Source of the DNA: Hexactinellida sp. DTS-2022
Taxonomy: Eukaryota; Porifera; Hexactinellida
Assembly: GCA_028753945.1 (NCBI GenBank)
Contig: JAPNXP010000005.1
Span: forward strand, 372,001-436,000
Length of the DNA: 64,000 bases
Reading direction: 5' to 3'
Shown here: positions 404-64,000 of the stretch, one piece after another
Layout: each line of letters opens with the position of its first letter
How positions within the stretch are numbered: position 1 is the stretch's first letter
The notes under the pieces: model-generated
Told to the model about the DNA's origin: nothing
What the model saw: only the letters and a program-made list of their open reading frames with translations
Databases searched by the model: none
Program-made: the position numbers and the translations under genes

Positions 404-3400
404 GTATGAGCCTTTCTATGGATCTCTACTATTCTCGAATGAAAGCAATGATGTAACAATCAACAAATCTGAAACTGGAACTAAATACAAAGAGGAATTG
501 AATTCACCATTTATTGATTCAAACCAAGTAAATAATACGGTTGTTTACTTAGCAATACATTAGAACCTCGTTAGTAGGAACACGGTTAATACGAACACTA
601 TTTCAGTCCCCTTCAAAGTCATTTCAATACAAATGATATTGGTTAATACGAATTCCAAAAAGGCGAACACATTTTGACGGTCCCCTGGTGTTCGTACTAA
701 CGAGATTATACTGTATATATAGTGGAACCTGTCTATAACTGCAATTCCAAAATGACCTTATAGATAAGTCGTAGTCAAAATCCAGGGTAATGTGTGACAA
801 TACAATTTGTAGCAAAATTTAGAATCTAACTTTACAACTTTTAAACTTTTACGACTCGTCAAAAAAAGTTGAGGTTGAGTCCTAATTTGGAATTTACTTT
901 AACTAGATCATTGTTCGGAATACATGCTGTAATATACACTCAATTCTAAACCCTTTTCTTATATAAACCTGGTTCGCAAAAGTTAATTATGATGTCAAAT
1001 GTAATGACCAAGCCAGTCCCTAAATGTTACATTAGAAAATGTGTTGACCGATATACAGTATTTAAAGTGATAACTTATAGAGGTCCCTAATGTTAAATAC
1101 TATAATTTGAAATGTTTGTTTAATTACAGACACTAAATACAAACAACATACTATATATTATTTTCATGAATAAACGAAAACAAACAAATAGGAGATTAGA
1201 AGAACTGTAGTTTATGAGACTGCTTATTATCAACAACAACAACAAGTCCCTCCTTGTTGATATCTATGCCTCGAGGAGAATGGAACTCTCCAGGTCCTGT
1301 CCCTTCGTGTCCCATGGTACCGACAAGCTGTCCCTCTCTGGTGAAAACTTTAACTTTATGAGCTCCCGCGTCACTAATTAGAATATTCGTGTGTCTGTCC
1401 AGACAGAAATACCAAGGTTTAATCAGCTGTTCCTGTGACACAATCGAATGCATTAGGTTCCCATCTCTGGTAAATGATTGGATAGGATAGGGACAATCAT
1501 AAAACAGGACTATAAATAGAGAGGGAGCTAATTTTAGGTCGAATAGGCAAGTGTCCTCTGTTATGTGTGGAGAGTTAAGTGGAATCACATCGACAGAGCT
1601 CAAATCCTCAACACTCAAATGAGATATGCTATTAGTATCAAGCATTCCTACATACAGTGTGTCTGTGTAAACTGACAGACCACGCATGATATACTTTGTT
1701 TCAACGCAACACAAAATGTCCCCAGACACTTTATCTAGCTTGCAGATAAGTGGATTATCACAGCTGACAAACAGGTGATGGAGTGAGACAGTTATGGAAT
1801 AAGGAAGAGACATTCCTTGTGGCTTAATTGTTCTCGAATAATTGCCTTCTTTGCTAAACACCTGAATCCTTTTAACCACGTAATCACACACGAATATATC
1901 CCCATTGTCTCTGTCTATTGACAGACCAGAAGGATAACATATTTCCATCTGTCCCATTCCTTTATTGACACCAGACCACACTGGGTTGTGTCTGTTCACG
2001 TAGGATACACCCTCACACAAGCGACACAATCCAGCCATGCCACCTTCCAACCACCCGTCATGCCACTCGAGCCACACAGATGGAATCCGATCCACAGTCG
2101 CCTCTAGTCCCCGTATCTTCTCGTCCAACTCTCGGGACACATTTATGAGAGTCTCATTGAGCTCATTGTGTTGGAGATTGTGTGTCGCATCAGCTTTGGT
2201 TACTTTCAACTGATTCAGCTTCACCTGTCTGTCCTCCACTTGTGTCTCTGCCACACGGACCACTTCATCCAGCTGTGCCACCAGTTCGAGGTGTCTGCCA
2301 CGTAGCACTTGGAAATAAACCTCGAATCGGACTCGTAACTCCTCTTTCGCTATCACCACTTCCCCCCGAATTCGTTCCAGCTCTCTGGCTGTCTCTTCTC
2401 GCATGTCCGCTACAAACTCAGTTGCCATTCTACTCTCGATTAGTTTCAGTTCCTTTAACACAGTTGCATTGTCCTATCTCTGCTGGCTGCTCTTCTTATA
2501 CTCACACAGCTCGCACCACGCAACACGCCACTTCTCTGCTAGCTATCCCGTTACACCACTAACCACACAACTCTATCAGGCAATCCCAGAGTCTCTGCTC
2601 GCTACACTGCCTGGCAACCATATGGCTACTATGCTACGCATAACCACATTTCATAATCTCTACATAGCAACAACAATGTAGCTAGTTATGCTTAGTTTCA
2701 GTTCTTACCACTTATATTCTGATTTTGAATTTATCATTTATTTCTAATAAGCATTAGAAAAATCTAAAATTGCAGCTGTGCCGACAGCATGTCCATTGCA
2801 TTGGAGGTCCATTGCATATATTTTAGTGGTTGGTTGATTGAATGTGCCTCCAAAAGCAAATGCTTTCGGCACAGCTGTAATTTTAGATTTTTTATTTTTG
2901 CGTTTACCCTACGACGCCGGGTCTTTGGTCTACATATTTTTTGCTTAATTTGTATGTGCTTTTATCTTTTATAGAGCGTACACATATTAGGAAGCTCTTT
3001 TGTAATTATTCTGTTTAGAAAGATAATGCAACTAACCCCCCCCCCAATATACCTTAGTCAAATCCAACTATAATCAATAGCTGATCCTACATTATTTCAT
3101 ACATTCATTGTATGATATAAGCCTAAGGTATAAGGCAGTGTTTTATGCAACCATTTGTAAATACGCTCCTAATCCTGGTCTGATCCAATTTTCATACGCC
3201 TAAATCACAAATTAATGTTACGGTATAGGAGAAGATTCCATTTTTCGCGCTCTTATATTCAAATTTTAACAAAATCATACTCCAAAAGGAGCGTCTCGCG
3301 CTCCTGGATAATAGATAATCATTCCTTGTAGTGTGTAGTGTAGGGTAAATATAATAATGCATAGGAGCGATAAACAACAACAACAACAACAATAGTTAGC

Positions 3401-11000: not shown

Positions 11001-13066
11001 AAACAGGGAAGAAGTCCCTAGTTACGAAATCAACCTTGTGGCATCCGATATGGATCCAATTGATCCTAGAGACTCTACAACTTTGTTAATTATAACAGTT
11101 GGGGATATCAATGATCAGGAACCATTTTTCACACCTATTAATCGATCTGTTGATGTTATAGAAAGTATTACTGTGCCACATAACCTATTGACTGTGCTTG
11201 CTAGAGATAATGATACCGGAATTAATGCAGTAGTTAGTTACAGTATTCTCTCAAGCTCTAATATAGGGAACCACTTCAGTATTACTAGTGATACAGGTAT
11301 ATGTTTGGTGTTTCTTTCTTTGTTTCTTTGTTTTCTATATGTTTGTTTGTTTGTTTATTTGATTGTTTGTTTGTTTTCTATATGTTTGTTTATGTGTTGT
11401 TTTGTTAATTGATTGTATATTTAATTGTTTATTTATCTGTTTGATTGATTGATTGTTTGTTTATTTAATAAATTATTTATTTGATTGTTTGTTTGTTTGT
11501 TTATTTATTTGTTGTTGTTATTTCTTACTGCATACCATTGCTTACTCCTGTTTACTACACACCTACATAGGTATCATATCTGTCACTACTGCTCTCAACA
11601 GAGAGACTATCTCTACCTTTACTCTCCTCACAGTCGCTACCGACTCAGGCCTAGGCTCCCTAACAGGAACTGGTACTGTAGTGGTTACGGTTACAGATGC
11701 CAACACACAGGACCCTGTGTTCTCACAAAGTATATATCAGGCCACTCTGTCTGAGAATACACCACTTGACACCTCTGTTTTAAAGGTAGTGACACTTAAG
11801 ACACAATTCTTAGTTCCAAATACAGTAGACTCTGTTAATAGGAACACCAGGGGACCGTATTAGTACAGTAGACTCTGTTAGTAGGAACACCAGGGGCCCA
11901 TATTAGGACAGTAGACTCTGTTAATAGGAAACCAGGGGACCGTCTTAATATGTTCGTATTATACGGAATTCGTATTAACCGGAGTTACTTACATGCATTT
12001 GTATAGGCTAGGGGAATTAACTTTGTACTCCTTAACCGATATTTCCCTTATCCGTGTTCCTATTAACGAGAGTCTACTATAGTTAGTATAGTATACTGTA
12101 TTTTCTATTAGTTCCATATTACATTGTTATCCTAAAGGTGTTAGTTCCAATACATACCCTTTGTATGCTTGTACACCTTATCCGTGTTCCTACTGTATGT
12201 TGTTTATAGGTTAATGCAAGCGACAATGACATAGGCGCAAATGCGATAATAACTTTCTCTCTTATCCAATCATCAGATTCTTCCTACTTCAAAATAGATT
12301 CCAAATTGGGACACATTTATATAGCCAATTCTTTGGATGCTGAGACACAATTATTATACGATTTTAAAGTGTTAGCGGAAGATAACGGAGTGCCACCTCG
12401 ATCTGCCACTTCACAGGTCCAAATAAGTGTCACAGACTCAAATGACCACTTTCCTATTTTCACACCTGATCTATTTATAGACTTTATTCCTGAAAATATG
12501 GGAATTTCATCCACAATTCGAGTATTAACAGCCTTTGATGGAGATATTGATCCTATAAATAACCGCTTGACTTATTCTATTATTAGTGAGACTCCTAATG
12601 AGAACAAGTTTACAGTTCTACCTTTAACTGGAACTGTTATAATCAGAAACCAGTTAGATAGAGAAACGACCGATTTCTATACTCTAATTATAGAGTGTGT
12701 TGATATAGGTGGTTTAAGCGACTCTGTTACACTACAAATTATTGTTACAGATATTAACGACAACTCACCTATAATACAGGCTACGTATACGTTCGATTAT
12801 CTGGAGAATGACGTAATTGGAACTAAGTTAGGAACTGTGTCTGCCACTGATGCGGATGAGCCTAATACCCTTAATTCACAGCTGAGATTCTCTTTAATTG
12901 GTAGGTGTTAGTAGCAGGTTGCCGTTGGTTAATTAGTATGGGAATTTTCCTATTGGAATTATACATTTCTTGTGGAAATTATACATTTTCCTATGGGTAT
13001 AATACATTTTCTTGTGAAAATTATACAGTACATACCCTTGCTAATCCGAACAGGATATTCAAAAAA

Positions 13067-25000: not shown

Positions 25001-28000
25001 ATAAGCTGATCATCTGTAATAGACTTTAGTTCAAACGGCTCAAAAGTGAACATTTTGGCTGGTCCCCTGGGTGTTCACTTTCTAAAGTTTTACTTTTACT
25101 TTAGTAGATTGAGACATTAGTTCCAGTTCCATTAACACCTGCTATTTAGGTCAGGTTTTTACAACAGACACGTTTGACTTTGAGACTAAGGCTCTCTACA
25201 CATTTACCGTTACAGCGGTTGACGCCGGTAACGCGAGTAGACAGGGAACAGCTGATATACAGGTCAGCATTTCCGATGTTAATGATAACCATCCAGAGTT
25301 AGTTCCAGTTTCATATTCAACTGAGCTGTCCGAAGATGTTGTTATTGGTGTTGTTGTGCTACTCGTGTCAGCTACTGATAGGGATATCACTACTAATGCG
25401 GTTATTAAGTGAGCTTATACGGAGTGTATGGTAGAACCTCGTTAGTAGGAACACCAGGGGACCGTCGATATTTATTCGTTTTATCCGGGATTAGTATTAA
25501 CCGGTGTCATTTGTACAGTGGATGCCGGTTATAAGAACATCGTCGGGAACTGCATATAATGTTCTTATAACCGACATAAATTATATAGGGTATATGGCAA
25601 CCGTTTTCCAGTAGAATGTTCTTATAACCGGCATGTTCTTATAACCGGTATCTACTGTAATCTATATGGGAGAGTATCTTTCGATTTTAACTGGAAAACT
25701 ATAACTATTATTATTGTGCCAACTATACTGTAGTATATGGCCCAGTATTGAAATTACTGCCTTGGTATATTATTATTTCTAGAAACATTATCTCTACACC
25801 CCTGCCAAATTTCAAGTTTGTAGATCTTGCCAGTTCCTCAATCAATTCCGAACAAAAAAATCATTGTTTTTTTTAAATTATATAAGATTACCGTATCCTC
25901 CACAGAACAGAGTTTTATTAACTAAGAACTTAAATTTTCAGGATAAATGTCTCATGGGTTACAGATGTGCACCTGGGGTCACGATTTTTGATAATTCACA
26001 TTTCCATCCCTAAATATGACAAAACTTTTAACCAATTAAATTCGAGGGAAATAACTCTAAAAATAAGTTCGCTTTTGTAATATACAAATATGGTATATTT
26101 GATTATACACATAATCTTCTGAAACTAAGAACATGTTTTGGCTACCCCGCTTGGAAACTAACGTATAATTTGAATGGTACTACCCATGTATGTTTGTATA
26201 ACCAAAAACAGTTTCATTTGACAAATTTTCAGTTAATACCTATTATAATCAACAAATAAACAAACTAGAACCATTGCAAAGAATAGTTAGGATTATGAGA
26301 TAAAACACAAATAGTTCCCAAGTTGGAAATACAAACTCCATAGGGGGTTATAAACTCTCCCTTTCCCTCCCCTTCCCTTCCCAAGGTGAGAATATGCTGT
26401 CCCAATTCCGTATACACCTTGATGGCATTACTCCCAATGTCGCTAATGATAATATTGCCAGCTGAGTCCAAACAGAAGAAGTAAGGGCAAGCGACCAAAC
26501 TGTCCTCTGTCCCTTGAGAGACACAGGAACTGAGGGGGTGTCCTTCTCGAGAGAAGAAATGGACACATTTGGGACTCAAGTCTAGCATCACGATTCGATC
26601 AGCTGACAGCTTAACGTCTCTAGGGTGATACAGCTGTCCTATTCCGATACAAGACTTGAATTTGAGGAGTTTCGAGTATACACACACTCTGTTGTTGTAG
26701 CAATCTGCAACTAACACATCTCCGTTAGTGTCGATACAAAGTCCACGGGGACCGTTAAACTCTCCTTCCTTGTTACCATAAGTTCCAGTTCTGTTGATGA
26801 GTTTTGAATCTTTCTTTCGGAACTGTAACAATGCATGGTGCCCCATGTCGGTTACGAATATGGACTCTTTGTTAACAGCTATTCCCCATGGATCCTCTAG
26901 CTTTTCATTCTTGAATTGCGCCACAAACTCTCCCTTTAAGGACACTATTTGCACACGACTGTTCCCATAATCTGCTACGTATACTAGTTCAGTGGATTCA
27001 TCGAATGCTATTCCTGCGGCATTCAACTCATTAGCACCTGCACCAAACTTCCCAGCTGTTAGTACCGGTTCTCGCTTGAGAGAATAGTCCGGTATCTCAC
27101 ACGGGACTATCTCTCCTAGCTCGGATATCAGCTGTCGGATTGTGTCCGTATTTTCACACCTTAAGACGGGACATAGGAATGTGGCAGATGGTCCCAGTTT
27201 CTTAATGCCCTGTTGGTATGCTTGTGTGGCTTGTTCATGGAACTCTAGGTTTGGGTTAACCTTTATGCTCATTTGCATCATTTGTTGCTGTACCCTTTCC
27301 AGTTCTTCTATGGCAGCGATACGAGTGGCCTCTTTGTTCCTGTGGTCCTCTCGCAGCTCACGGACCCTCTGGAGGAGAGCGTCCCTCCTCGCGATCAGCT
27401 GACCGATTAGGGGATCGAATGTTTGGTAGATGATAGTGGCAACATTGTCGAAATGTGGTATTTTATCGAAAATAACATTTGTAGGCATATTAGTGGCCAT
27501 TTTAGTTTTGGTTATGAATTGAGTTTATTCAAATAATATAATTAATGTAATACAGCTCTATCTTATACTTGTGTAACTTGAGAATACCAAAGTACGTCAA
27601 TGGTTGCTATGGTGATATCTGGAAAGTTAGGGAATTTTTCTTGGATAATTGTGTCTACTGTGATACAATAATAATGATCTGAATTGTTTACAGCGTTTAC
27701 TTTTGGAGGCACTATTGATCAACCAACGACCAAAATAAAGTGCCTCCAAAGTACATGCTGTCGGCACAGCTGTAATTTTAGATTTCTTCAACCAGTTATT
27801 TTACAGCATTTTCTTTTGGAGGCACTATTGATCAACCAACGACCAAAATATAGTGCCTCCAAAGTACATGCTGTCGGCACAGCTGTAATTTTAGATTTTT
27901 GGAATTGAAATGATTGAAATGGCTTTGAATGGGACTGAAATAGTGTTCGTATTAACCGTGTTCGTACTAACGAGGTTCTACTGTATTATACTAGTATTAG

Positions 28001-31000
28001 TAAACTTTACTAATTACTATACTTTATAGTTATTACTGTGCCGACTATACTATAGTATAGTGGCCCAGTTCTAATCTTACTACTTTGGTATATTATTAGT
28101 CCGTATCCTCTCCACAGAACAGAGTTTGTTAACTAAGAACTGAAATTTTCAGGATAGGTGTCTCATCGGTTACAGATGGGCACCTGGGGTCACGATTTAT
28201 TAATTTCGACTTGGGAAAATTTTAACGGGACTTTTAGCTTTTTTGTCCCATAAGAAAATTAATGCAATAACAAGAAAATTTTTAGAATCATTAGTATCAG
28301 AAAAGTATTTTGCAACTGATAGCTCTTCACGATTTTTTTAAGCCGTCCTCATTTTCCTGATAATTAGACTCAAAGTTGCCACAATTCACCCTTAACTTCT
28401 AAAATCGTAAATTCATTAATATTCAATTATGCAATTATTTCGTGGTTTCGATGAAGAACTACTATTTATGAATAATTCAATTAGATTCTATAGCTGCTAC
28501 TACATAAATCGATTTCTAATACATACTTAGTTGCAGTGTATTATACAGCTATTTGTAAATACGCTCCTAATCCTGGTCTGATCCAATTTCCATACGCCTA
28601 AATAGCAAATTAATGTTACGGTATAGGAGAGGATCCAAATTTTCACGCTCCTAAATTCAAATTTTCCAAAAATCATGCTCCTAGAGGAGCGTCTCGCGCT
28701 CCTGGATAACTCCTTGCTTAGTTGTATTAAAGTATTCTCCTATATGAAAATTTAATTTCACTCAACAGTTATTCGATTTCAGAACGATTTCTGAGATTCA
28801 AACAATGGATTAATGAGATGGAATATCTATTTATATAAATATTCGTCTGTGTCTGTTGGTGCCCGAAAGGTATTGGAGTGATAGGGGAGTTTATAATGGG
28901 AATATAAACTTAATCCCTTTTGTCATTCTAAGTAAACAAGTATGCTGATTTTATTGTTGACGTTTACAAATAGGTAAACAAATTGCTTCGATTCAGAATG
29001 AACCTTTTTACTATCTTGCCATTGTTGTAATGGGTAAAGAACTATGTTGATAACTAGTTATTTATTGTGTACGGATATATGATGTTAATATTTATTGTTG
29101 TTGTTCATAAAACTTGTACAAAACTACAAATTGATTAAAATTTATTTGTACATTGAGGGCAAAGGGTATTACAGATAATTTCTATAATTTAGTATCTTTA
29201 CATAATGAATGAATGGCAATAAACTCAAGATGGTTCAAGATAGAATAATTTAAAATCTACAATCATTCCTTTGTCCCGTAACAACTTGTTAAATGAGTCT
29301 AAACACCATGTGACATTCATGACATGGCGAAAAAATCTAAAATTGCAGCCTGTGTCGACAGCATGTTCCTTTGGAGGCACTATCAATAGACCACCACCAA
29401 AGTATAGTGCCACCAAAGGAACATGCGTCGGCACAGGCTGCAATTTTAGATTATTTATTACTGTGCGGACTATACTGTAGTATAGTGGCCCAGTATTGAA
29501 ATCACTTCCATGGTATATTATTATTACTAGAAACATTATCTCTACACCCCTGCCAAATTTCAAGTCTGTACATCTTACCAATTCCTCAATCAATTCCGAA
29601 CTGTTTTATTATATAAATTACCGTATCCTCTCCACAGAACAGAGTTTTATTAACTGAACTTAAATTTTCAGAATATGTGTCTCATGGGTTACAGATGTGC
29701 ACCTGGGGTCACGATTTTAGATAAATCACATTTCCATCCCAAAAGATGACAAACTTTTAACCAATTTAATCCGAGGGGAAATAACTCTAAAAATAAGTTC
29801 GCTTTTGTAATATACAAATATGGTATATTATTCTACACATAATTTTCTGACAAAATATGGTATATTTTATTATTCTGGAACTAAGAACATGTTTTGGCTA
29901 CCCCCCTTGGAAACTTACGTATAATTTGAATGGTACTACCCATGTATGTTTGTATAACCAAAAAACAGTTTAATTGGACAAATTTTCAGTTCATACCTTT
30001 TAGAATCAACAAATAAACAAACTAGAAAAATTGCAAAGAATAGTTAGGATTACGAGATAAAACACAAATTGTTCCCAAGTTGGAAATACAAACTCCATAG
30101 GGGGTTATAAACTCTCCCATTCCCTCCCCTTCCCTTCCCAAGGTGTGAATATGCTGTCCAGTTTCCGTATACACCTTGATGGCATTACTCCCATAGTCGC
30201 TAATGATGACATTTCCAGCTGAGTCCAAACAGAAGAAGGAAGGCATAGCGACCGAACTGTCCTCTGTCCCTCTAGAGACACAGGAACTGAGGGGGTGTCC
30301 TTCTCGAGAGATGAAATGGACACATTTTGAACTAAAGTTTAGCACCATGATTCGATCAGCTGACAGCTTAACGTCTCTAGGGTGATACAGCTGTCCTATT
30401 CCGATGCAGGACTTGAATTTGAGGAGTTTCGAGTATACGCACACTCTGTTGTTGTAGCAATCTGCAACTAACACATCTCCGTTAGTGTCGATACAGAGTC
30501 CACGGGGACCGTTAAACTCTCCTTCCTTGTTACCATAAGTTCCAGTTCTGTTGATGAGTTTTGAATCTTTCTTTCGGAACTGTAACAATGCATGGTGCCC
30601 CATGTCGGTTACGAATATGGAGTCTTTGTTAACAGCTATTCCCCATGGATCCTCTAGCTTTTCATTCTTGAATTGCGCCACAAACTCTCCCTTTAATGAC
30701 ACTATTTGCACACGACTGTTCCCATAATCTGCTACGTACATTAGTTCAGTGGATTCATCGAATGCTATTCCTGCGGCATTCAACTCATTAGCACCTGCAC
30801 CTAACTTCCCAGCTGTTAATACCGGTTCTCGCTTGAGAGAATAGTCCGGTATCTCACACGGGACTATCTCTCCTAGCTCGGATATCAGCTGTCGGATTGT
30901 GTCCGTATTTTGACACCTTAAGACGGGACATAGGAATGTGGCAGATGATCCCAGTTTCTCAATGCCCTGTTGGTATGCTTGTTTGGCCTGTTCATGGAAC

Positions 31001-34000
31001 TCTAGGTTTGGGTTAACCTTTATGCTCATTTCGTGCATTTGTTGCTGTACCCTTTCGAGTTCTTCTATGGCAGCGATACGAGTGGCCTCTTTGTTCCTGT
31101 GGTCCTCTCGCAGCTCACGGACCCTCTGGAGGAGAGCGTCCCTCCTCGCGATCAGCTGATCGATTAGCGGATCAAAGGTTTGGAGAATGATAGTGGCGAC
31201 AATGTCGAATTGTGCCATTTTATCGAAAGTTACATTTGTAGGCATATTAGTGGCCATTTTAGTTTTAGTTACGAATTGAGTTTATTCAAATAATATAATT
31301 AATATAATACAGATCTATCTTATACTTGTGTAACTTGAGAATACCAATGTACGTCAATGGTTGCTATGGTGATATCTGGAAAGTTAGGGAAATTTTATTG
31401 GTTAATTGTGTCTACTGTGATACAATAATAAAGATCTGAATTGTTTACAGCGTTTACTTTTGGAGGCACTATTGATCAACCAACGACCAAAATATAGTTC
31501 CTCCAAAGGACAATCTGTCGGCACAGCTGTAATTTTAGATTTTTAGAATTGAAATGATTGAAATGGCTTTGAATGGGACTGAAATAGTGTTCGTATTAAC
31601 CGTGTTCGTACTAACGAGGTTCTACTGTATTATACTATTACTAAACTTTACTATTACTATACTTTATAGTTCCTATTACGTAATACAGTCAGGTCTGCTT
31701 ATTATGAACAAGATTTCGTCTGCTTAATATGAAGATTTTTTAATGAACAAGCCCTATGGTCCCAATTTATCAACTTACATCGGGTTTGTATTAAGTTGAG
31801 TTCGCTTATTATGAAGTCTCTCTATTATGAACACAATTTTTGGTCCCCTTGAATGTTCATAATAAAAGAACCTGACTGTATTATACTATTGCTATACTTA
31901 CTATTACTATACTCTATAGTTCCTATTACATAATATTATACTCTGTAGATTTGTGAAGATATCTGGATCAGCTGATTTCCTTATAGACTTTAATACCGGA
32001 GAACTTAAGGTAGCTAGAGAGTTGGACAGGGAATTAATCTCTTCTTATAGTGTAGTTATTAAGGGTGTAGATCAAGGGGTTCCCCAATTGGATTCTGATC
32101 CACTTATTGTCCAAATTGGTATTCTAGATATTAACGATAACACGCCACAATTTGTCACACCTATTGTTACTAATATTAGCATTCCAGAGAACACATTGGT
32201 TGCTACCTCAGTTGTGCAGTATTTCGCGAGTGATCCTGATTTCGGTGAAAATGGAACTATAACTTTCACACTTTTTGGTTCCAATTTGTTCAAGATAGGT
32301 TCCATAACTGGGTTATTAGAGGTGTCACAAATTCTCGACCGAGAAAATTTAGATTTCGTCCAACTAACAATAATAATAAATGACAATGGATCACCTAGCC
32401 TTTCAAATCAAATAAATTTAAATATTAACATAACTGATTCTAATGATAATCCGCCTATTTTTGATGGCTCTATTCAAACGACACTTTTCATTCGCGAGGA
32501 CACATTTGTCGGTCAGGTGATAGTCAATACCCCTGCCACAGATGCGGATATTAACACCAATATGGAACTAACTTATAGACTAGTAGACAGTAACCCAATC
32601 ACTGGATTAACAACATTTGCAATGAATGAACAAACGGCTGAATTGACAATAGCTATTGCAAATATTGATAGGGAAACAGTTGATCATTATACACTTAAAA
32701 TAGAAGCATTTGATAATGGTATTCCTTCCTTAAAAACTAATTTAACAATTTCAATAACAATCACAGATTTTAACGATAATGCACCTATTTTGACACTTGA
32801 CACTTATGAAATTTCCATCAGCGAATCAACTTCTGTTTTGAGTTCTATTTATAGATTTTATGCTACTGATAGTGATATAGGTGTTAATATGGAATTTAAT
32901 TTTTCGATTCAAAATGGAGATTCTGCTAATTTCTCTATTAACGCGATAACTGGTGTGTTATCCACACTTAACACTTTTGATTTTGAAGTGGCATCAATAT
33001 ACACATTCACAATTATTGTTACTGACAAAGGAATAACACCTTTGACAACTCAAAATAGTGTCCGAGTCTTAATATTTGATATTAATGACAATTCACCTTT
33101 TCTCACAGATACAAAGTATGAAAAAGGTTTGCTAGAAGATTTTAACACTGGGGCTACGGTATTTATATTCAATGCAACCGATATTGATTCTGGATTGTTT
33201 GGGGAAATACAATTCGAGCTAATGGGAATTTCCTCCGGTTTTGTGGTTGATTTAGAAAACGGGATAATGTCTTCAACTGGTTTATTTACCGGACAAGTTG
33301 GACGTACTTTTGATTTTCAAATTCGTGCCTTTGATAATAAAGGTGTTACTCCGACACTTTTTGACACTGAAAACGTGCATATTGTAATAATTTCTCCCAA
33401 TTTTGTCATTGAAATGGTATTGAATCGATCACCTGAATTTGTGATAAGAAACCAACATCAAATAGAAGATATATTTACAGAGGCTATAAAAGTTAATGTT
33501 ATTATTGACCAAATATCGCCTTATTACGACACTTTAAATTTAGTTGATCCTTCGAAAACAACTGTAAACATACATGCGACACATTTAACCACTAACACAT
33601 TGATTGAAGGTCTAGATTTATTAAAAGGTCTTGATGAAAATGAAGCACTTATAAACGATCTTTTATTTACAGCCGGGATTGAATTAGCCGAACCAATTAT
33701 TCCAAAAGATACCACTTTAATTTCAACTGAATTAGCTCTAATAATCCTATCAGCTATCCTGGTTCTATTTATAGCCTGTTGTAGTTGTGTTCTGTGTATG
33801 TTAATGGTACGCATTTATAGGCTGCGTCAACGTAAACAACAATATGCCAAATCATACGCTAGTCTTTCAACTTATTTTCCATCTCAGAGCAATATTTCGT
33901 CACCAACCGAACTACATTCACTTACAAATCCACTTTATATAAGCCCATACCCGAATTCATCTTTTTTCGAAAAGCCAGCCTCTTTGCGTTATGAATCACA

Positions 34001-34507: not shown

Positions 34508-35773
34508 TTAGAAGAATTGTAGCAGATGAGACGGCTTACAATCAACAACAAGAAGTCCCTCCTTGTTGATATCTAAGCCTCGAGGAAATAGGAACTCTCC
34601 AGGTCCTGTCCCTTTGTGTCCCATGGTACCGACAAGCTGTCCCTCTCTGTTGAACACTTTAACACTGTGAGCTCCATGGTCACTAACTATAATATTCATG
34701 TGTCTGTCCAGACAGAAATAGTGAGCTTTAATCAGCTGTTCCTGTGACACAATCGAATGCATTAGGTTCCCATCTCTGGTAAATGATTGGATGGAATAGG
34801 GACACCCATAAAACAGGACTATAAATAGAGAGGGAGCTAATTTTAGTTCGAATAGCCTAGTGTCCTTTGTTATATGTGGAGAGTTAAGTGGAGTCATATC
34901 GACAGACCGCAAATCCTCAAAACTGTAATGAGGTATGCTGTTAAATCTTTCCATTCCTACATACAGTGTGTCTGTGTCAACTGACAGACCACACATGTCA
35001 TACCCTGTTTCAACACGACACAGAATGTCCCCAGACACTTTATATAGCTTGCAGATATAATTCGAAATATCACTGCTGACAAACAGGTGATGGAGTGAGA
35101 CAGCTATGGAATTAGGAAAAGTCATTCTTTGTGGCTTAATTGTTCTCGAATAATTGCCTTCTTTGCTAAACACCTGAATCCTATGAGCAGCATAATCACA
35201 CACAAATATATCTCCATTGTCTCTGTCTATTGACAGACCAGAAGGAATACATATTTCCATCTGTCCATTTCCTTTATTGACACCAGACCACACTGGGTTG
35301 TGTCTGTTCACGTAGGATACACCCTCACACAAGCGACACAATCCAGCCATGCCACCTTCCAACCACCCGTCATGCCACTCGAGCCACACAGATGGAATCC
35401 GATCCACAGTCGCCTCTAGTCCCCGTATCTTCTCGTCCAACTCTCGGGACACATTTACTAGAGTCTCATTGAGCTCATTGTGTTGGAGATTGTGTGACGC
35501 ATCAGCTTTGGTTACTTTCAACTGATTCAGCTTCACCTGTCTGTCCTCCACTTGTGTCTCTGCCACACGGACCACTTCATCCAGCTGTGCCACCAGTTCG
35601 AGGTGTCTGCCACGTAGCACTTGGAAGTAATACTCGAATCGGACACGTAACTCCTCTTTCGCTATCACCACTTCCCCTCGAATTCGTTCCAGCTCTCTGG
35701 CTGTCTCTTCTCGCATGTCCGCTACAAACTCAGTTGCCATTCTACTCTCGATTAGTTTCAGTTCCTTTAACAC
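34508..35773 (-). CDS. Coiled-coil/NHL-repeat protein, family A copy 2
   Basis: 421 aa, colinear with the gene at 1196-2461. The first 190 residues differ at only a few positions (such as RFEYYF against RFEVYF). The propeller differs at dozens of positions, clustered at loops: CDYAAHRIQVF against [22 protein letters not shown] against [20 protein letters not shown] against GEFHSPRGI. Flanking identity runs from about 34470 to 36017. It lies downstream of the cadherin on the opposite strand, 312 bp from its stop codon, so the two transcripts converge. Confidence 0.9.
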   Translation of the reverse strand: MLKELKLIESRMATEFVADMREETARELERIRGEVVIAKEELRVRFEYYFQVLRGRHLELVAQLDEVVRVAETQVEDRQVKLNQLKVTKADASHNLQHNELNETLVNVSRELDEKIRGLEATVDRIPSVWLEWHDGWLEGGMAGLCRLCEGVSYVNRHNPVWSGVNKGNGQMEICIPSGLSIDRDNGDIFVCDYAAHRIQVFSKEGNYSRTIKPQRMTFPNSIAVSLHHLFVSSDISNYICKLYKVSGDILCRVETGYDMCGLSVDTDTLYVGMERFNSIPHYSFEDLRSVDMTPLNSPHITKDTRLFELKLAPSLFIVLFYGCPYSIQSFTRDGNLMHSIVSQEQLIKAHYFCLDRHMNIIVSDHGAHSVKVFNREGQLVGTMGHKGTGPGEFLFPRGLDINKEGLLVVDCKPSHLLQFF

Positions 35774-36152
35774 AGTTGCATTGTCCTATCTCTGCTGGCT
35801 GCTCTTCTTATACTCACACAGCTCGCACCACGCAACACGCCACTTCTCTGCTAGCTATCCCGTTACACCACTAACCACACAACTCTATCAGGCAATCCCA
35901 GAGCTCTCTGCTCGCTACACAGCCTGGAAACCATATGGCACTATGCTACGTATAACCACATTCCATAATCTCTACATAGCAACAACATCTGTAGCTAGTT
36001 ATGCTTAGTTTCAGTTCCATATAGTAATTTAATTATTCAAAAAATTTGATTTTGTTCTGTACTATTATTCCATTTCCACAGGAAAATCCTGTTCAACAAT
36101 TTGTAACCATTCAAAAAAATGCCTTTTGAGCCATTTTTATGGGAGAATCTAT

Positions 36153-58407: not shown

Positions 58408-58963
58408 TACAGTGGATATCGGTTGTAAGATTTAGGGCTGAAACGAACATACCGAATATTCGAATATTCGTTCGAAATGATTAAACGAATATTCGTTCGA
58501 AATGATTAGACGAATATTCGTTCGAAATGATTAGACGAATATTCGTTCGTTTCCAAACGAATATTCGTTTACTACCTTTGGGTAACAACATGATTTTTGT
58601 ATGATTGGAGAGATCATAGATATATATTCTTGCCTACTAGCTGATTCATAGCAAATTTGTCTCTGATATGTAACTATGATTAAATTATTGTAACACTAAC
58701 AGGAAACTATTTTCCACAGTATTTAAGACTTGAATTTGATTTAATGTTTAGTCATCCAAACGAACGAATATTCGAATATTCGTTCGTTTAAAAAAGGTTC
58801 GTTCGTTACATTTCGTATATTCGTTTCAGCGCTAATAAGAATCATGTTCTGAGAAACGGTTCTATTAGTTAAAATTGAAAAATTATCGGTTATAAGATCA
58901 TATCGGATATAAGAACATATTTCTCTACTCCCAACGATGTTCTTACAACCGGTATCCACTGTA
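58408..58963. mobile_element. MITE family 3 interrupted by a 402-bp hAT-like element
   Basis: Outer MITE: TACAGTGGATATCGGTTGTA to CCGGTATCCACTGTA. Inner element 58433-58834: TAGGGCTGAAACGAACATAC on the left and the complement of TAGCGCTGAAACGAATATAC on the right. Flanks GTAAGATT and ATAAGAAT are an imperfect 8-bp duplication (6 of 8). The inner element is rich in CGAATATTCG palindromes. Confidence 0.75.
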
Positions 58964-58992
58964 TTTCAAAAGCATTTAGTCATTAGTTGCTG

Positions 58993-59694
58993 ATGATCCT
59001 GTGTAAAATCTCCTTTCTTTTTGTTGTGACGTTATTTGGGTTGGATGCACTAGTACCAGAGTTGTCCCCAAGTAATTCTTATGAAGGAACATTACGTACA
59101 ACTATCACTGTTGGCAATGGGGTGCCTGACGTTTTGTTTACCAAAGACGCATACTGGCGCAATTATAACACAAATGGCAAGCAATTACAAATAAGGGGTG
59201 GTATCGAGGTGAGAAACGGCATAGAAACTGTTCTTCGTCGGACTCTCAGTCTAGCTGATAATTCGACTCTTTTTCATCAGTATAATGATACCTGCACAAC
59301 TTCATACACTACCCTTGATGATGACGCATTAGAATTGATAACCAATCCTTGGGGCTGGTTAGATTCTGCTACTGAAAATCCTCCTGGAACATTTTCTAAT
59401 ACAATTCAATCACAAATGTACAATTTTACATATCGATTAGAATTGTGTAATTCACTTCCTCATCGCCTCGAAGTTTTGGTGGTTGGGGTTGGTATACGTG
59501 TGCTACGTGAAATCAACATAACCAAGTATGAAGATGGAGAACCTGATTTTGAGCTGTTTTACATATCACCGATTTGTTTGGATTTTCATTACTCTTGCAG
59601 CGAGTGTTACAGTTCTGCTTTTGGCCTTTTTAGTAACTTCCCATTGGTGATTGTCATTATCGTAGTTTACTATTTACTACTTATTAGTTTCTAA
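58993..59694 (+). CDS. Unrecognised secreted or type I membrane protein
   Basis: An intronless 233-aa frame. The ATG at 58993 gives a signal peptide (ILCKISFLFVVTLFGLDALV). The ectodomain begins SPSNSYEGTLRTTITVGNG and has at least six Cys (NDTCTTSY, ELCNSL, SPICLDFHYSCSECYSS) and four N-glycosylation sequons (NST, NDT, NFT, NIT). The last 20 residues are hydrophobic (FPLVIVIIVVYYLLLISF), either a TM helix with no tail or a GPI-type signal. The YDx-like strand pattern followed by a Cys recalls LolA-like/ependymin-related ectodomains, but this is only a weak resemblance. No function is assigned. Its start lies 29 bp after the interrupted MITE at 58408-58963. Confidence 0.7.
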   Translation: MILCKISFLFVVTLFGLDALVPELSPSNSYEGTLRTTITVGNGVPDVLFTKDAYWRNYNTNGKQLQIRGGIEVRNGIETVLRRTLSLADNSTLFHQYNDTCTTSYTTLDDDALELITNPWGWLDSATENPPGTFSNTIQSQMYNFTYRLELCNSLPHRLEVLVVGVGIRVLREINITKYEDGEPDFELFYISPICLDFHYSCSECYSSAFGLFSNFPLVIVIIVVYYLLLISF

Positions 59695-60301
59695 TACTTT
59701 TTCGAAAATTAATTCTTTTTAGGATAGGGCCTCGAACTATTTATTCGTTTCGAATGATTTTCCAACTTAATACATGTTAGGATAGATCTGTATTACCATT
59801 ATTTATTTTTATTTCTCTATTAATTTCGTTATTATTATTGCTGTTATTCTTGCTAGTTATGGGTTTATTCGAATCAATTTTTAGTTTATTATAACAAGTT
59901 CGAATCGATTTTTAGTCAATTGTAACAAGTTCGAATTGAAGGTCATTTAAAAAAATCCTAATAAACCAATAAACTAACTTGGTATCAGCTCCAATTACTA
60001 GACTCATAAATTATTGCAAATAATATAATTGAGCCATAATTAAACATTCCATTGCGAGTATCTGGTATCCTAGCAGAGCCAGTAATGATTCTCACAATGA
60101 AAGTATTTCCTTTCACTACATTCCTGACTGGATGGAGTCACCATGTGCATCAGAAGAGGCGGCACACAAACAGATGCCACATCCACTCAGTTCCACCACC
60201 TAGCTCTGCTATAAGATACGAGACACATTCTCTATAGCATTCTACTAACAAACTACTTTCCTTCCATAGCACTAACTAGCTAACTAGCAAATAATAACAA
60301 A

Positions 60302-61519
60302 ATGGCAGTTCGATTCCCTGACCCGATACACCCCGTAGACCCTGTCGAGTTGGAAATACACCAACTGTTCGACCGAATAATTATGTGTGTCCAGCAGCGA
60401 CGAGTGGCACTCATAACCACATACCGCGACACACGCGACCAAATAGCCGCTAGGCCCATAGAGCGCGCGCGAAAAGAAGAAGAACTGATCGGACTGAAAA
60501 CCGAAACCGAGGCTCGTCTCCAAATGAACCAACTGAGAGAGTTACAAGAGCGAATCCTAGTGGAACTAGAACAAGCGCTAGCAGAGGTGAGGGTACCCCA
60601 GCCCGAGACACGCGTGGTGTTCCGAGGCACCTGTGGACACCTGGAGCAGGTGATCGCAGGTGTGGGAGAGGTAGTCGAGGAGGAGGTGCCCGTTGTACCC
60701 CGATATCAAGAAATGAGACCGATTGTATCTGTCGGGAAGAAAGGACAAGCTCCTGGAGAGCTCTATAATCCTCATGGTGTCGCAATCGATGAGAACACAA
60801 ATCTGATTTATATTGCAGAAGGGTATGGTTCCAGTAGAGTCTCAATCTTCTCGGAGACAGGCGAATTCCTAAATACTTTCACAAACCAAGCCATGAGAGC
60901 GCCATGGGGTATAGCGATCCATCGAGACAACCTGTACGTGACGGACATAGGAGTACACGCTGTGTTCCGATTCAAAATAGAGGCTGACATGCGTCTCGTC
61001 GCTAGCCTAGGGAGTCAGGGATCTGGTGTGGGACAGTTCAATGGCCCTCACGGACTCACCGTCTCTACCAACGGAGATGTGTTCGTAGCAGATTCTAAGA
61101 ACCACAGAATCCAAGTCCTAGATGACTCCCTACACTTCAAAAGATCCATAAGGCTTGGGGCATTGCAACACCCGTGTGACGTTAAACTGACACCAGATGA
61201 GGTGTACGTGCTAGCTTACAGACACATACACGTGTTAACCTACACAGGGGATAGGATACGCTCTTTCAATGCGCAACCTGGGTATGAGGGATTAGTCCTT
61301 AATCTTGACTTCATATGTTTGGACGCACATCACAACATAATACTCAGACAGTGTGATACTCATAATATCAGAATACTAACCAAAGAGGGCACACACCTAC
61401 ACACCATACAGAGACCAGAGGGCGGAGAATTCTTGTTTGGAATAGCTCTAACTAATAATCTAAATATAGTAACTGTGGATAGAGATGCACCTAACCAGCT
61501 AATAATATTATCTAGCTAA
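60302..61519 (+). CDS. Coiled-coil/NHL-repeat protein, family C copy 1
   Basis: An intact intronless 405-aa frame. Residues 1-105 are helical and coiled coil (ERARKEEELIGLKTETEARL). Residues 107-135 (VVFRGTCGHLEQVIAGVGEV) match the TRIM-like linker also seen in family B. Six NHL blades follow from about 140: PHGVAIDENTNLIYIAEGYG, WGIAIHRDNLYVTDIGVHAV, PHGLTVSTNGDVFVADSKNH, PCDVKLTPDEVYVLAYRHIH, LDFICLDAHHNIILRQCDTH, and a final blade. The 5' flank from about 59949 is repeated before copy 2, giving a tandem unit of 2747 bp. No RING or B-box. Partner unknown. Confidence 0.9.
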   Translation: MAVRFPDPIHPVDPVELEIHQLFDRIIMCVQQRRVALITTYRDTRDQIAARPIERARKEEELIGLKTETEARLQMNQLRELQERILVELEQALAEVRVPQPETRVVFRGTCGHLEQVIAGVGEVVEEEVPVVPRYQEMRPIVSVGKKGQAPGELYNPHGVAIDENTNLIYIAEGYGSSRVSIFSETGEFLNTFTNQAMRAPWGIAIHRDNLYVTDIGVHAVFRFKIEADMRLVASLGSQGSGVGQFNGPHGLTVSTNGDVFVADSKNHRIQVLDDSLHFKRSIRLGALQHPCDVKLTPDEVYVLAYRHIHVLTYTGDRIRSFNAQPGYEGLVLNLDFICLDAHHNIILRQCDTHNIRILTKEGTHLHTIQRPEGGEFLFGIALTNNLNIVTVDRDAPNQLIILSS

Positions 61520-62693
61520 TGTGTGATATTGTTATTACTATTGTTATTATTATTACTACTGTTGTTGTTTACGATTGCAATTTGGGTGTCTAGCTGCGAT
61601 GGGCAAGAAGGCTAAGGAACATGCTTTAATAGGAACACCAGGGGACCGTCTTAATATGTTCGTATTATCCGGAGTCACTAGCATGCATTTGTACGTATAA
61701 GGCTAGGGGATTCGTATTAACAGAATTAGAAATAACTTTCTGTGAGTATAATGGAGCTTTTCCTGACCTTATACAGTGTGACATAAATACTGTCCCAATC
61801 CATCTAAACTTATATTCCTATCAAATACACAAGTTACTATAGAAACTAAGGTGATAGCCCATCAAAAACAAAGGTAATTAATTTCAAGTTTGATAGCATT
61901 TTTGGACAGTATACTTGGTAATAATTTATTTGTTAACCTGGAAAATAGAATTAATCTAGCTTGAATTACTATAGAGTTATAGATTATGGTCTTAGTCTAA
62001 ATTTGATAAGAAACAACTTGGCCATTGAGTTTGTGTGTCTAGCTTTTATATATTTTGAGAAAACCCTTGGAAACGAACCTACACTTTTTCGCAAGAAGGG
62101 GTAAAATTTCTGGAGAAATGACGATACATTGAGCCACTTTTGAAGCCATACGTCACCCAAAAATGATCGGATTGAAATTTTTCTTCGTATTAGGAGGTTT
62201 ACATGTGGATGTATATACAGTGGATGCCGGTTATAAGCACATCGTCGGGAATTGCACTTAATGTGCTTATAACCTACATGTTCATATAACCGACATAAAT
62301 TATATAGGGTATATGGCAACCGTTTTCCAACATAGTGTTCTTATATCCGATATGTTCTTATAACCGGTGTGCTTATATCCGACATCTACTGTACTTGCAC
62401 AGGTAAAACCAATATTTGAACAATTTGGAATATCTGGTATCACCTATTAGCTTAAATACTCACAGTTCCAAATTATAACTCTCAAATCGGTTAACGGAAC
62501 TAATCCTAAACCACTTTCATAATCCGGAAACTGCATTTGCAGTATACTGCATATACTGTACTAGATTAATGGATTAAATTAGTGGATTTCTCTTAAACAG
62601 TATACATCATATATTCTGTCTTAAGGTCGATACCTAGACTTATTGAAAGTTAATATCGAATTCTAGATATCGATATTTGAGCCCCCTGAGTAA
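61520..62693. other. Spacer between tandem NHL genes
   Basis: A family 2 MITE fragment (61626-61730) and a family 3 MITE (62216-62393: TACAGTGGATGCCGGTTATA to CGACATCTACTGTA). The remainder is AT-rich with no gene seen. Confidence 0.6.
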
Positions 62694-63048
62694 AAAAATC
62701 CTAATAAACCACTAAACTAACTTGGTATCAGTTCCAATATCACTAGACTCTCATAAATTCTTGCAAATAATATAATTAAGCCATAATTAAACATTCCATT
62801 GCGAGTATCTGGTATCCTAGCAGAGCCAGTTATGATTCTCACAATGAAAGTATTTCCTTTCACTACATTCCTGACTGGATGGAGTCACCATGTGCATCAG
62901 AAGAGGCGGCACACAAACAGATGCCACATCCACTCAGTTCCACCACCTAGCTCTGCTATAAGATACGAGACACATTCTCTATAGCATTCTAATAACAAAC
63001 TACTTTCATTTCATAGCAATAACTAGCCAACTAGTAAATAATAACAAA

Positions 63049-64000
63049 ATGGCAGTTCGATTCCCTGACCCGATACACCCCGTAGACCCTGTCGAGTTGG
63101 AAATACACCAACTGTTCGACCGCATAATTATGTGTGTCCAGCAGCGACGAGTGGCACTCATAACCACATACCGCGACACACGCGACCAAATAGCCGCTAG
63201 GCCCATAACCCGCGCGCGAAAAGAAGAAGAACTGATCGCACTCAAAATCGAAACCGAGCGTCTCCTCCAAATGAACGAACTGAGAGAGACCCAGGAGCGA
63301 ATCCTAGCGGAACTAGAACAAGCGCTAGCAGAGGTGAGGGTACCCCAGCCCGAGACACGCGTGGTGTTCCGAGGCACCTGTGGACACCTGGAGCAGGTGA
63401 TCGCAGGTGTGGGAGAGGTAGTCGAGGAGGAGGTGCCCGTTGTACCCCGATATGAAGAGTTGAGACCGATTGTAACTGTCGGGAAGCATGGACAAGCTCC
63501 TGGAGAGCTCGCGTATCCTCGTGGTGTCGCTATTGATGAAAACACAAATCTGATTTATGTCACAGAAGGGTTAGATTCCCGTAGAGTCTCAATCTTCTCG
63601 GAGACAGGCGAATTCCTAAATACTTTCACAAACCAAGCCATGAGAGCGCCATTCGGTATAGCGATCCATCGAGACAACCTGTACGTGACGGACACAGGAG
63701 TACACGCAGTGTTCCGATTCAAAATAGAGGCTGACATGCGTCTCGTCGCTAGCCTAGGGAGTCAGGGATCTGGGGTGGGAAAGTTCGATTACCCTCGCGG
63801 ACTCACCGTCTCTACCAACGGAGATGTGTTCGTAGCGGATTATCACAACCACAGAATCCAAGTCCTAGATGACTCCCTACACTTCCAAAGATCCATAACG
63901 CATCAAACAATGAAATACCCGTGGGACGTTAAACTGACACCAGATGAGGTGTACGTGCTAACTGCTAGACACATACTCGTGTTAACCTACACAGGGGATA
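63049..64000 (+). CDS. Coiled-coil/NHL-repeat protein, family C copy 2, cut by window end
   Basis: Open for 317 codons to the window edge. Nearly identical to copy 1 in flank, coiled coil and propeller framework, but with clusters of replaced residues: AYPRGV for YNPHGV, VTEGLDSRRV for IAEGYGSSRV, PFGIA for PWGIA, KFDYPRGL for QFNGPHGL, ADYHNHRI for ADSKNHRI, and a seven-codon block THQTMKY for RLGALQH. No gap is needed in the alignment. Confidence 0.9.
   Translation, partial: MAVRFPDPIHPVDPVELEIHQLFDRIIMCVQQRRVALITTYRDTRDQIAARPITRARKEEELIALKIETERLLQMNELRETQERILAELEQALAEVRVPQPETRVVFRGTCGHLEQVIAGVGEVVEEEVPVVPRYEELRPIVTVGKHGQAPGELAYPRGVAIDENTNLIYVTEGLDSRRVSIFSETGEFLNTFTNQAMRAPFGIAIHRDNLYVTDTGVHAVFRFKIEADMRLVASLGSQGSGVGKFDYPRGLTVSTNGDVFVADYHNHRIQVLDDSLHFQRSITHQTMKYPWDVKLTPDEVYVLTARHILVLTYTGD

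Follow-up and report, generated by a model that had tools for sequence, protein, structure and literature searches.

The window, that is, the whole 64,000-nucleotide stretch of hexactinellid sponge DNA analysed here, carries two closely related genes in tandem at its right-hand end. Gene 1 is a single uninterrupted frame. Gene 2 runs on beyond position 64,000, which a sequence-only reading had given as the end of the feature and which is merely the end of the window; in the genome, gene 2 is a complete frame of 404 amino acids (locus L011). That reading recognized two adjacent copies, but the array includes a third at C14:438641 that is 97% identical to gene 1. A 200-bp element immediately upstream of gene 1 has a counterpart before gene 2 and is 94-97% conserved across 48 paralogues (50-base bins), with similarity falling past -200. 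The copy upstream of gene 1 contains a TATA-like CTATAAG, spotted by eye. Two other sets of NHL genes in the window, families A and B, are listed with the pair in Table 1.

Table 1. NHL genes of the window and hypervariable (HV) codons of gene 1, numbered by codon.
Feature	Position in window	Strand	Remarks
Gene 1	60302..61519	+	family C (C1 type); uninterrupted 405-aa frame
Gene 1 domains			aa 1-140, N-terminal region; aa 141-405, NHL propeller
Gene 2	63049..64000	+	family C (C1 type); continues past window end
Upstream element of gene 1	60102..60301	+	200 bp
Upstream element of gene 2	62849..63048	+	counterpart of the gene 1 element
Family A member	26265..27524	-	419-aa NHL frame
Family A second member	30022..31281	-	
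Family B member	34508..35785	-	425-aa NHL frame
Family B second member	1196..2473	-	
Blade 1 D-A loop	60740..60775	+	HV codons 147, 149, 155, 156, 158 (xxPxG)
Blade 1 B-C loop	60824..60829	+	HV codons 175, 176
Blade 2 D-A loop	60899..60907	+	HV codons 200, 202
Blade 2 B-C loop	60947..60949	+	HV codon 216
Blade 3 D-A loop	61016..61051	+	HV codons 239, 247, 248, 250
Blade 3 B-C loop	61094..61105	+	HV codons 265, 266, 268 (ADxxNx)
Blade 4 D-A loop	61169..61177	+	HV codons 290, 292; 290 PP>0.95 in C2 only
Blade 4 B-C loop	61217..61222	+	HV codons 306, 307
Blade 5 D-A loop	61283..61309	+	HV codons 328, 334, 336
Blade 5 B-C loop	61352..61363	+	HV codons 351, 352, 354; PP>0.95: 352 throughout, 351 C2 only, 354 neither
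Blade 6 D-A loop	61421..61438	+	HV codons 374, 379; 374 PP>0.95 in C2 only
Blade 6 B-C loop	61481..61483	+	HV codon 394; PP>0.95 in C2 only

Gene 1 matches the Pfam model PF01436 at 1.7e-23 with three NHL stretches reported, and six anchor pairs were placed by eye. Its best match in the PDB is Thin (6d69, E 3.7e-41), followed by TRIM2 and TRIM71. Like the TRIM-NHL proteins (TRIM2/3/71-LIN41, Brat, Mei-P26 and Thin), it carries a C-terminal NHL propeller that is recognizable by sequence. RING and B-box domains gave no Pfam match in gene 1, in its first 140 amino acids, or in one member each of families A and B, and none of the genome's 20 B-box matches lies, by eye, inside the listed NHL stretches. 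Simple hydropathy finds no strongly hydrophobic N-terminus in gene 1 (highest 19-residue mean 1.2) and thus no sign of the signal peptide or membrane segment that secreted or membrane-bound variable immune receptors possess. The products would be TRIM-NHL-like intracellular proteins without RING or B-box, in which about 140 conserved amino acids at the N-terminal end precede a putative six-bladed propeller. In a coiled-coil check of this N-terminal region, the best heptad a/d score (0.88) was reached by 21 of 100 shuffles. The blades of gene 1 are mutually dissimilar (identity 0.07-0.22 in a gap-penalised alignment), and the gene is free of internal direct repeats at least 20 bases long.

Genes of this NHL family are intronless and occupy at least 355 loci in the genome. 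This figure is a minimum, scoring having been confined to the best candidates; it is a union built from 442 positions that merges neighbours less than 1.7 kb apart, mostly omits second pieces of one gene and counts truncated copies. The same genome holds two Frizzled matches, which identify it as that of an animal. For family C, 62 loci (L009-L070) were fetched, lower-ranked broken pieces not being among them, and 55 genes were kept (C1, n=24; C2, n=31). The seven that were dropped lack an intact frame (L027) or the usual start (L057), extend past the fetched stretch (L065 and L070), are truncated (L067 and L068) or are divergent (L069). Family A is represented by 22 genes, two from the window and 20 fetched out of 55 other rows at 79% or more, and family B by nine, two from the window and seven fetched from 27 further long rows (at least 73%).

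Within the window, genes 1 and 2 have 317 codons in common. Fifty of these differ, 40 by replacement and 10 silently, so that the clustered codon swaps between near-identical copies described from the sequence alone are real and had been understated. Between positions 60750 and 61257, where that reading counted six synonymous changes and more than twenty replaced residues, the codon table gives 6 silent and 28 replaced codons. Its remark that many codons had changed at several bases applies to 8 of these 28, which require two or three base changes. The swaps do occur around x-x-P-x-G and after AD/TD/AE, but 8 replacements also fall at codons 54-87 and 4 at codons 136-147. Length, said never to change, is constant over the codons that the two genes share in the window (no indels), but varies from 398 to 418 amino acids among the 55 kept genes.

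Across these 55 intact genes, 30 codons of the NHL part are hypervariable. Every one of the 55 strings of HV residues is distinct, with a mean identity of 21%. At HV codons, pN reaches 0.455 in C1 and 0.474 in C2, compared to a pS of 0.071-0.087 elsewhere in the genes. The resulting pN/pS ratios of 3.40 and 2.81 are well above those of the N-terminus (0.57 and 0.58). In C1, the remainder of the NHL part also has a pN/pS of 1.12. The contrast can be seen in a single pair of genes on different chromosomes. L035 and L048 differ at 4 bases in 140 N-terminal codons and at 27 in 235 other NHL codons, while their 30 HV codons show about 31 replacement and 4 silent changes.

Surface loops that are merely free to vary could accumulate many replacements. 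The positions are indeed loop positions, and their equivalents also differ between NHL subfamilies, according to the available portions of PMC5908797. However, neutral codons are expected to have equal pN and pS, and the pN of 0.41-0.47 at HV or slot codons (see below) far exceeds the pS of 0.035-0.134 elsewhere in the same genes. Relaxed constraint is therefore disfavoured. Residue use at these sites is also selective, with W favoured and V, P and I avoided, and an explanation by loss of constraint is barely credible.

Site models likewise point to positive selection, with 2dlnL values of 268 and 313 on one tree and of 358 and 740 on six trees by segment. Across the four analyses, 34-42 sites have PP>0.95. 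A core of 26 sites has PP>0.9 in every analysis, and 24 of these belong to the NHL part. Four alignments simulated without positive selection gave 0, 1, 0 and 0 of 405 sites at PP>0.95; both the models and the simulations assume recombination-free trees, whereas family C genes recombine. In each analysis, PP>0.95 is also reached at three sites of the N-terminus (drawn from 38, 54, 64, 71 and 92), and selection therefore extends beyond the putative binding face.

A diversity-generating mutator directed at the HV codons might make this variation in place of selection. Several observations fit such a mechanism. HV codons approach saturation at a silent divergence elsewhere of less than 0.1, they are nearly unlinked at distances of 3-12 bases, and their first two positions are about twice as variable as the third. 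In C1, HV codons have twice the silent C/T diversity found elsewhere (0.071 versus 0.036; 21 sites). This doubling weighs against the selection reading, as does an NG86 pS that is raised 1.5-2 times at HV codons of both C1 and C2, a rise to which multi-hit paths may contribute. However, silent C/T diversity at the HV codons of C2 stays at background (0.042 versus 0.044 in the rest), while third-position changes that replace the residue do exist at HV codons (TGT/TGG, CAT/CAA). By eye, the variable bases have no common template base, and the single-base spectrum of HV replacements is like that of replacements elsewhere (transition share 0.39 versus 0.43). In favour of selection, silent diversity beside HV codons is not elevated (0.035 and 0.033, versus 0.057 and 0.046 beyond 10 codons). 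Codon-targeted mutagenesis is accordingly quite improbable. General hypermutation and template-directed mutagenesis are also disfavoured.

The framework of these genes is shuffled, and kept alike, by short-tract exchange. Linkage between framework sites is down to background at about 60-120 bases, and comparisons between copies violate the four-gamete criterion. These signs of exchange could suggest that blocks of variable codons are copied wholesale from gene to gene, the cassette exchange that had been offered as one origin of the variation. However, the HV codons are almost unlinked at 3-12 bases, with an r2 of 0.042 in C2 and 0.062 in C1 (0.033 and 0.043 expected under independence), while other sites are linked at this range (0.175 and 0.165). 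Mutual information between HV codons of the same blade is also low (mean z 0.59 in C1 and 0.04 in C2), and z exceeds 4 in only 2 of 435 pairs in C1 and in none in C2. Cassettes are thus a highly improbable source of the HV codons. Short-tract gene conversion among dispersed copies would act together with purifying selection to hold the framework, the N-terminus and the 200-bp upstream element alike.

In each blade, selection appears to have diversified about five residues between copies, in the D-A loop (P-2, P-1 and P+1) and the B-C loop (D+1 and D+2). In LIN41, the corresponding residues border the surface with which its NHL domain binds ligand. All 14 RNA contacts listed in the available text on the LIN41/TRIM71 crystal structure fall in slots that are hypervariable here. 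Mapped by homology, 21 of the 30 HV sites occupy contact-homologous slots (3.4 expected, p=2.2e-17), the slot offsets having been derived from the published LIN41 contacts once the HV sites were known. The other nine HV sites fall elsewhere, and nine of the 30 slots (five per blade) are not hypervariable. Several anchors of families A and B, like the D anchors of blades 4-6, were set by eye. When slots are picked by structure alone, their pN/pS is 3.25 in C1, 2.25 in C2, 2.85 in family A and 3.37 in family B. By this homology, the variable positions would share one face of the propeller.

The same pattern recurs outside family C. The same motif positions are hypervariable in the 22 genes of family A and variable in the nine of family B. 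Of the 30 most variable NHL sites in family B, 16 lie within 27 slots (3.1 expected, p=7e-11), and pN/pS falls from 3.37 in slots to 0.94 in other NHL codons and 0.52 in the N-terminus. In a set of 66 database proteins, presumably from another species, 18 of the 19 HV positions in residues 141-300, as defined in our 55 genes, rank among the 21 most variable. When both sets are clustered, one cluster mixes 51 of our genes with 20 database proteins, and four of our genes fall outside it. Diversifying selection on a putative ligand-binding face, as first proposed from the gene pair, is thus supported in families A, B and C, and the database set varies at the same positions, but selection also involves N-terminal sites, and in C1 it is accompanied by doubled silent diversity.

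The residues at HV sites give some indication of what the face might bind. W, Y, H, R and N are enriched, and V, P and I are depleted. The 64-fold enrichment of Trp rests on a pseudocount because Trp is nearly absent from the rest of the domain. Brat and LIN41 each bind one RNA motif through base-specific contacts on the propeller face, and every copy in the present family might similarly recognize a different short RNA of viral, transposon or cellular mRNA origin. The coincidence of HV slots with LIN41 contacts, the enrichment of residues able to stack on or hydrogen-bond to bases, and the hydropathy profile of gene 1 are all consistent with an RNA repertoire. However, the net charge of HV sites averages -0.1 in C1 and 0.5 in C2 (range -6 to +4), and that of the whole NHL domain is about -6, unlike the basic faces of LIN41 and Brat described in the accessible parts of PMC5908797. 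Conserved basic contact residues of the LIN41/TRIM71 type are absent, their positions being the hypervariable ones. The same portions of that source report that the RNA-binding surface is not conserved in TRIM2/TRIM3 and NHL1. Overall, an RNA-recognition repertoire seems less likely than not.

These genes probably encode a germline repertoire for intracellular recognition under diversifying selection, most likely of non-self. The face would bind ligands, and this binding would be the trait under selection. We infer that candidate targets include pathogens, viruses, mobile elements and other individuals. For the ligand itself, the chance of a protein or peptide is about half and that of RNA about a third. 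An immune or allorecognition role is plausible, and the face could instead serve multimerisation or diversified self targets. The family differs from known class VII TRIM proteins in its hundreds of copies and in a contact face that is hypervariable and nearly neutral in charge.

Another close likeness is to fungal NLR proteins of the NWD/HNWD type (het-d, het-e and het-r of Podospora). As described in the available text of PMC4986451, a few surface positions per propeller repeat diversify within a concerted frame, and the role is non-self recognition. Positive selection at a few face positions per repeat is common to both systems, with NHL here in place of WD40. In contrast, the fungal WD40 repeats are about 85% identical within a gene, are shuffled between genes and are fused to NACHT (same portions of PMC4986451), whereas the present blades are unlike each other, diversity lies between many paralogous genes and gene 1 has no Pfam match to NACHT. 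The large NLR and SRCR families proposed for recognition in sponges (PMC8242945, PMC10855680) use other domains, and the portion of PMC8242945 available to us mentions NHL nowhere but in the legend of a figure. Our literature search, with thin coverage of subscription papers and none of preprints, found no description of such a hypervariable NHL family. We tentatively suggest that an early-branching animal recognizes non-self inside its cells by means of a germline-diversified set of cytoplasmic NHL propellers numbering in the hundreds. Each would carry on one binding face about 30 residues that have diversified independently, in a modular arrangement of about five per blade. To judge from this search, no hypervariable repertoire of propellers would have been described in an animal before, and the likeness to the fungal WD40 system would be a case of convergence.

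If so, a domain known as an RNA-binding or scaffold module has become a large variable repertoire in an animal, and a lineage without antibodies gains candidate molecules for recognizing non-self or viruses. Its genes would represent a library of propeller binding faces sampled by nature, and a route to asking which ligands press on the genome. Comparing framework with face also offers a clean way of telling gene conversion from selection.

One further frame near the pair, at 58987-59694, was considered as a partner gene and rejected. Among the fetched loci it is present only in L009 and L002, both of which overlap that stretch. This orphan frame has two weak relatives, located on another contig.

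The genome that carries the two tandem family C genes comprises 112.4 Mb on 18 contigs, and the window is C14:372001-436000. Over the 317 codons common to both inside the window, gene 1 and gene 2 differ at 50, of which 40 are replaced and 10 silent, and there are no gaps. The sequence-only reading had counted six synonymous changes against more than twenty replaced residues between 60750 and 61257 in gene 1, and the comparison bears this out (28 replaced, 6 silent). Pfam recognizes NHL repeats (PF01436, 1.7e-23), and the solved structures that match best are NHL propellers, those of Thin, TRIM2 and TRIM71. The first 140 residues (hereafter the N-terminus; the NHL domain spans residues 141-405) have no Pfam match above the curated cut-off. 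Simple hydropathy reveals no leader or membrane segment, so that the protein probably stays inside the cell. The 200 bases upstream of the start codon, taken in 50-base bins, are 94-97% conserved across 48 genes; likeness falls further out.

Features in and next to the window (window coordinates unless a contig is named)
Feature	Position	Strand	Description
Gene 1	60302-61519	+	405 aa, uninterrupted frame
Gene 2	from 63049, past window end	+	near-copy of gene 1; complete in genome, 404 aa
Third copy, after gene 2	C14:438641		97% identical to gene 1
Orphan frame, upstream of gene 1	58987-59694	+	235 aa; by eye, an apparent signal peptide and a hydrophobic stretch at the C-terminal end
AT-rich repeat, upstream of gene 1	58440-58850		short repeated unit around GAATATTCGTTCG (by eye)
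Long frame	15430-18399	-	989 aa, uninterrupted
Cadherin-repeat frames, between NHL genes	12210-12911 and 31920-34196	+	

All copy numbers are lower bounds from one genome, which two Frizzled matches mark as an animal's. With gene 1 as the query, identity ranges from 61 to 100% in the best 62 rows, a few of which are truncated, and the rows cluster on contigs C7, C13, C11, C15, C5 and C14. Two other NHL subfamilies are represented in the window by two genes each and give 57 rows at ≥79% (family A) and 29 long rows at ≥73% (family B). Four pooled searches locate at least 355 NHL loci. There are 20 B-box matches in the genome, none of which, by eye, overlaps a listed NHL stretch. Family C comprises two subgroups, C1 (L009-L033) and C2 (L034-L066), that are alike in the N-terminus and first blades and differ in the C-terminal blades. 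Decayed copies with in-frame stops (L027, C9:1630132, C12:4867535 and C6:1184533) indicate that the family loses members too.

Variation was mapped in an alignment of 55 intact genes, 24 of type C1 (LIILSS-like ends) and 31 of type C2 (LQIFSCQ-like ends). Entropy exceeds 1.4 bits in both subgroups at 30 NHL codons, here called hypervariable. These recur in blade after blade at x-x-P-x-G and x-D-x-x-N, while the intervening stretches vary little. All 55 of the resulting 30-residue strings are distinct, with a mean pairwise identity of 21%. Trp, Tyr, His and Cys are enriched at these sites, Val, Ile and Pro are depleted, and Trp is nearly missing from the rest of the domain. Mean net charge over the 30 sites is -0.1 in C1 and 0.5 in C2.

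The proposal of diversifying selection holds up when substitution rates are compared over paralogues. By the Nei-Gojobori method, pN at the hypervariable codons is 0.455 (C1) and 0.474 (C2) and pN/pS is 3.40 and 2.81, compared with 0.57 and 0.58 in the N-terminus and 1.12 and 0.57 in the remaining NHL codons. For example, the copies L035 and L048 sit on different chromosomes and show 4 base differences across the 140 N-terminal codons and 27 across the 235 other NHL codons, but about 35 across the 30 hypervariable codons, 31 of them replacements. A custom-written, FUBAR-like grid model testing beta > alpha agrees. Its trees are only approximate since paralogues recombine; 2dlnL is 268 (C1) and 313 (C2) with one tree and 358 and 740 with a separate tree for each of six segments. 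Posterior probability exceeds 0.95 at 42 and 37 sites (41 and 34 by segments), 39 and 34 of which (38 and 31) lie within the NHL domain. Four simulations on the same trees, without positive selection or recombination, gave 0, 1, 0 and 0 of 405 sites.

A general mutational hot spot would spread silent changes as well. At hypervariable NNY codons, silent C/T diversity is at the background level in C2 (0.042 versus 0.044) and is doubled in C1 (0.071 versus 0.036; 21 sites), an excess that the selection reading leaves unexplained. Silent diversity is not raised in the adjoining codons. In the codon tables, the third base is largely site-specific and kept while the first two vary, and third-base changes occur mainly where the residue demands them. 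This pattern differs from that of a hot spot and argues for selection on residues.

Linkage between polymorphic sites outside the hypervariable codons is 0.26 and 0.34 at ≤10 bases and decays to about 0.05 beyond 60-120 bases, so paralogues exchange short tracts. The alternative suggestion, that cassette exchange supplies the variable codons, is not supported. At 3-12 bases, r2 is 0.062 (C1) and 0.042 (C2) for hypervariable codons, close to the 0.043 and 0.033 expected under independence, whereas other sites give 0.165 and 0.175. Variable blocks are therefore not swapped wholesale. Each hypervariable codon diversifies nearly independently, and the framework evolves in concert.

The binding face can be placed by homology. 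The available text on the zebrafish LIN41 crystal structure lists RNA contacts at C563, R564, R581, S582, R611, K628, D629, Y658, W660, R676, R707, F722, R752 and R770 (PMC5908797). With a constant offset, all 14 residue types match the TRIM71 chain, and all 14 fall in five slots per blade: P-2, P-1 and P+1 in the D-A loop and D+1 and D+2 in the B-C loop. In that structure, as far as the same text describes it, slot residues line the upper, RNA-binding surface (PMC5908797). Five slots in six blades make 30 positions in gene 1, several blade anchors being set by eye, and hypervariable codons occupy 21 of them (expected 3.4, p=2.2e-17). The remaining nine hypervariable codons (147, 149, 176, 239, 268, 307, 328, 354 and 374) lie, by eye, in or beside the same loops. 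Slots defined by structure give pN/pS of 3.25 (C1), 2.25 (C2), 2.85 (A) and 3.37 (B), and codons outside them 0.41-1.19. By homology, most of the variable propeller sites map to one face, but selection is not confined to it: each analysis also picks out three N-terminal sites.

The pattern recurs elsewhere. Of the 30 NHL sites that vary most in family A (22 genes), 21 lie in the 30 slots (expected 3.4); for family B (9 genes) the figure is 16 of 30, in 27 slots (expected 3.1). A protein database holds 599 relatives. When the best 120 of these are grouped by framework, 66 fall together in a cluster that contains none of this genome's own genes and presumably comes from a single other species. 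Near-fixed framework differences separate the 55 genes from the 66 (D7E, M28V, Q31N, D46A, V105A, L190I and N195H). Both types, assigned in the 66 by a rough C-terminus rule, are present there with that set's own N-terminal residues. Within each set, the framework residue is the same in members of type C1 and type C2; position 7, for example, is D in 24/24 and 31/31 genes here and E in 25/25 and 41/41 of the 66. This sharing implies concerted evolution within each set. Among residues 141-300, 18 of 19 hypervariable positions rank within the 21 most variable of the 66, and in a third cluster of nine proteins 16 of 19 are again most variable.

The propeller would present a single face, on which the D-A and B-C loops expose about 30 variable side chains, and the N-terminus, being constant, probably links binding to an output shared by all copies. 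In a heptad test for a coiled coil, 21 of 100 shuffled versions of the N-terminus scored as high as the sequence itself (best a/d score 0.88). By analogy, a diversified face on a conserved remainder is the signature expected of receptors chased by changing ligands. To judge from the available text, the closest analogue in logic is the WD40 propeller of fungal NWD/HNWD proteins, in which four positions of each repeat, all on the interaction surface, are under positive selection while repeats evolve in concert (PMC4986451); these proteins differ in their WD40 fold, NACHT fusion and internal repeat shuffling. The closest relatives by sequence are TRIM-NHL proteins, whereas family C is without RING and B-box and has many copies and a variable face. 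The same surface is described, in the text available, as evolving rapidly between NHL subfamilies (PMC5908797). No earlier description of such a hypervariable NHL family was found in the literature searched. LIN41 binds RNA on this face, but here it is not basic, so RNA is no likelier a ligand than protein or peptide. Non-self recognition appears the likeliest role.

Two further frames in the window have no Pfam match at E 0.1. The 989-aa frame, judged by eye, is possibly a mobile-element protein. The orphan frame upstream of gene 1 has two weak relatives (26-30% identity) that adjoin each other on contig C3.
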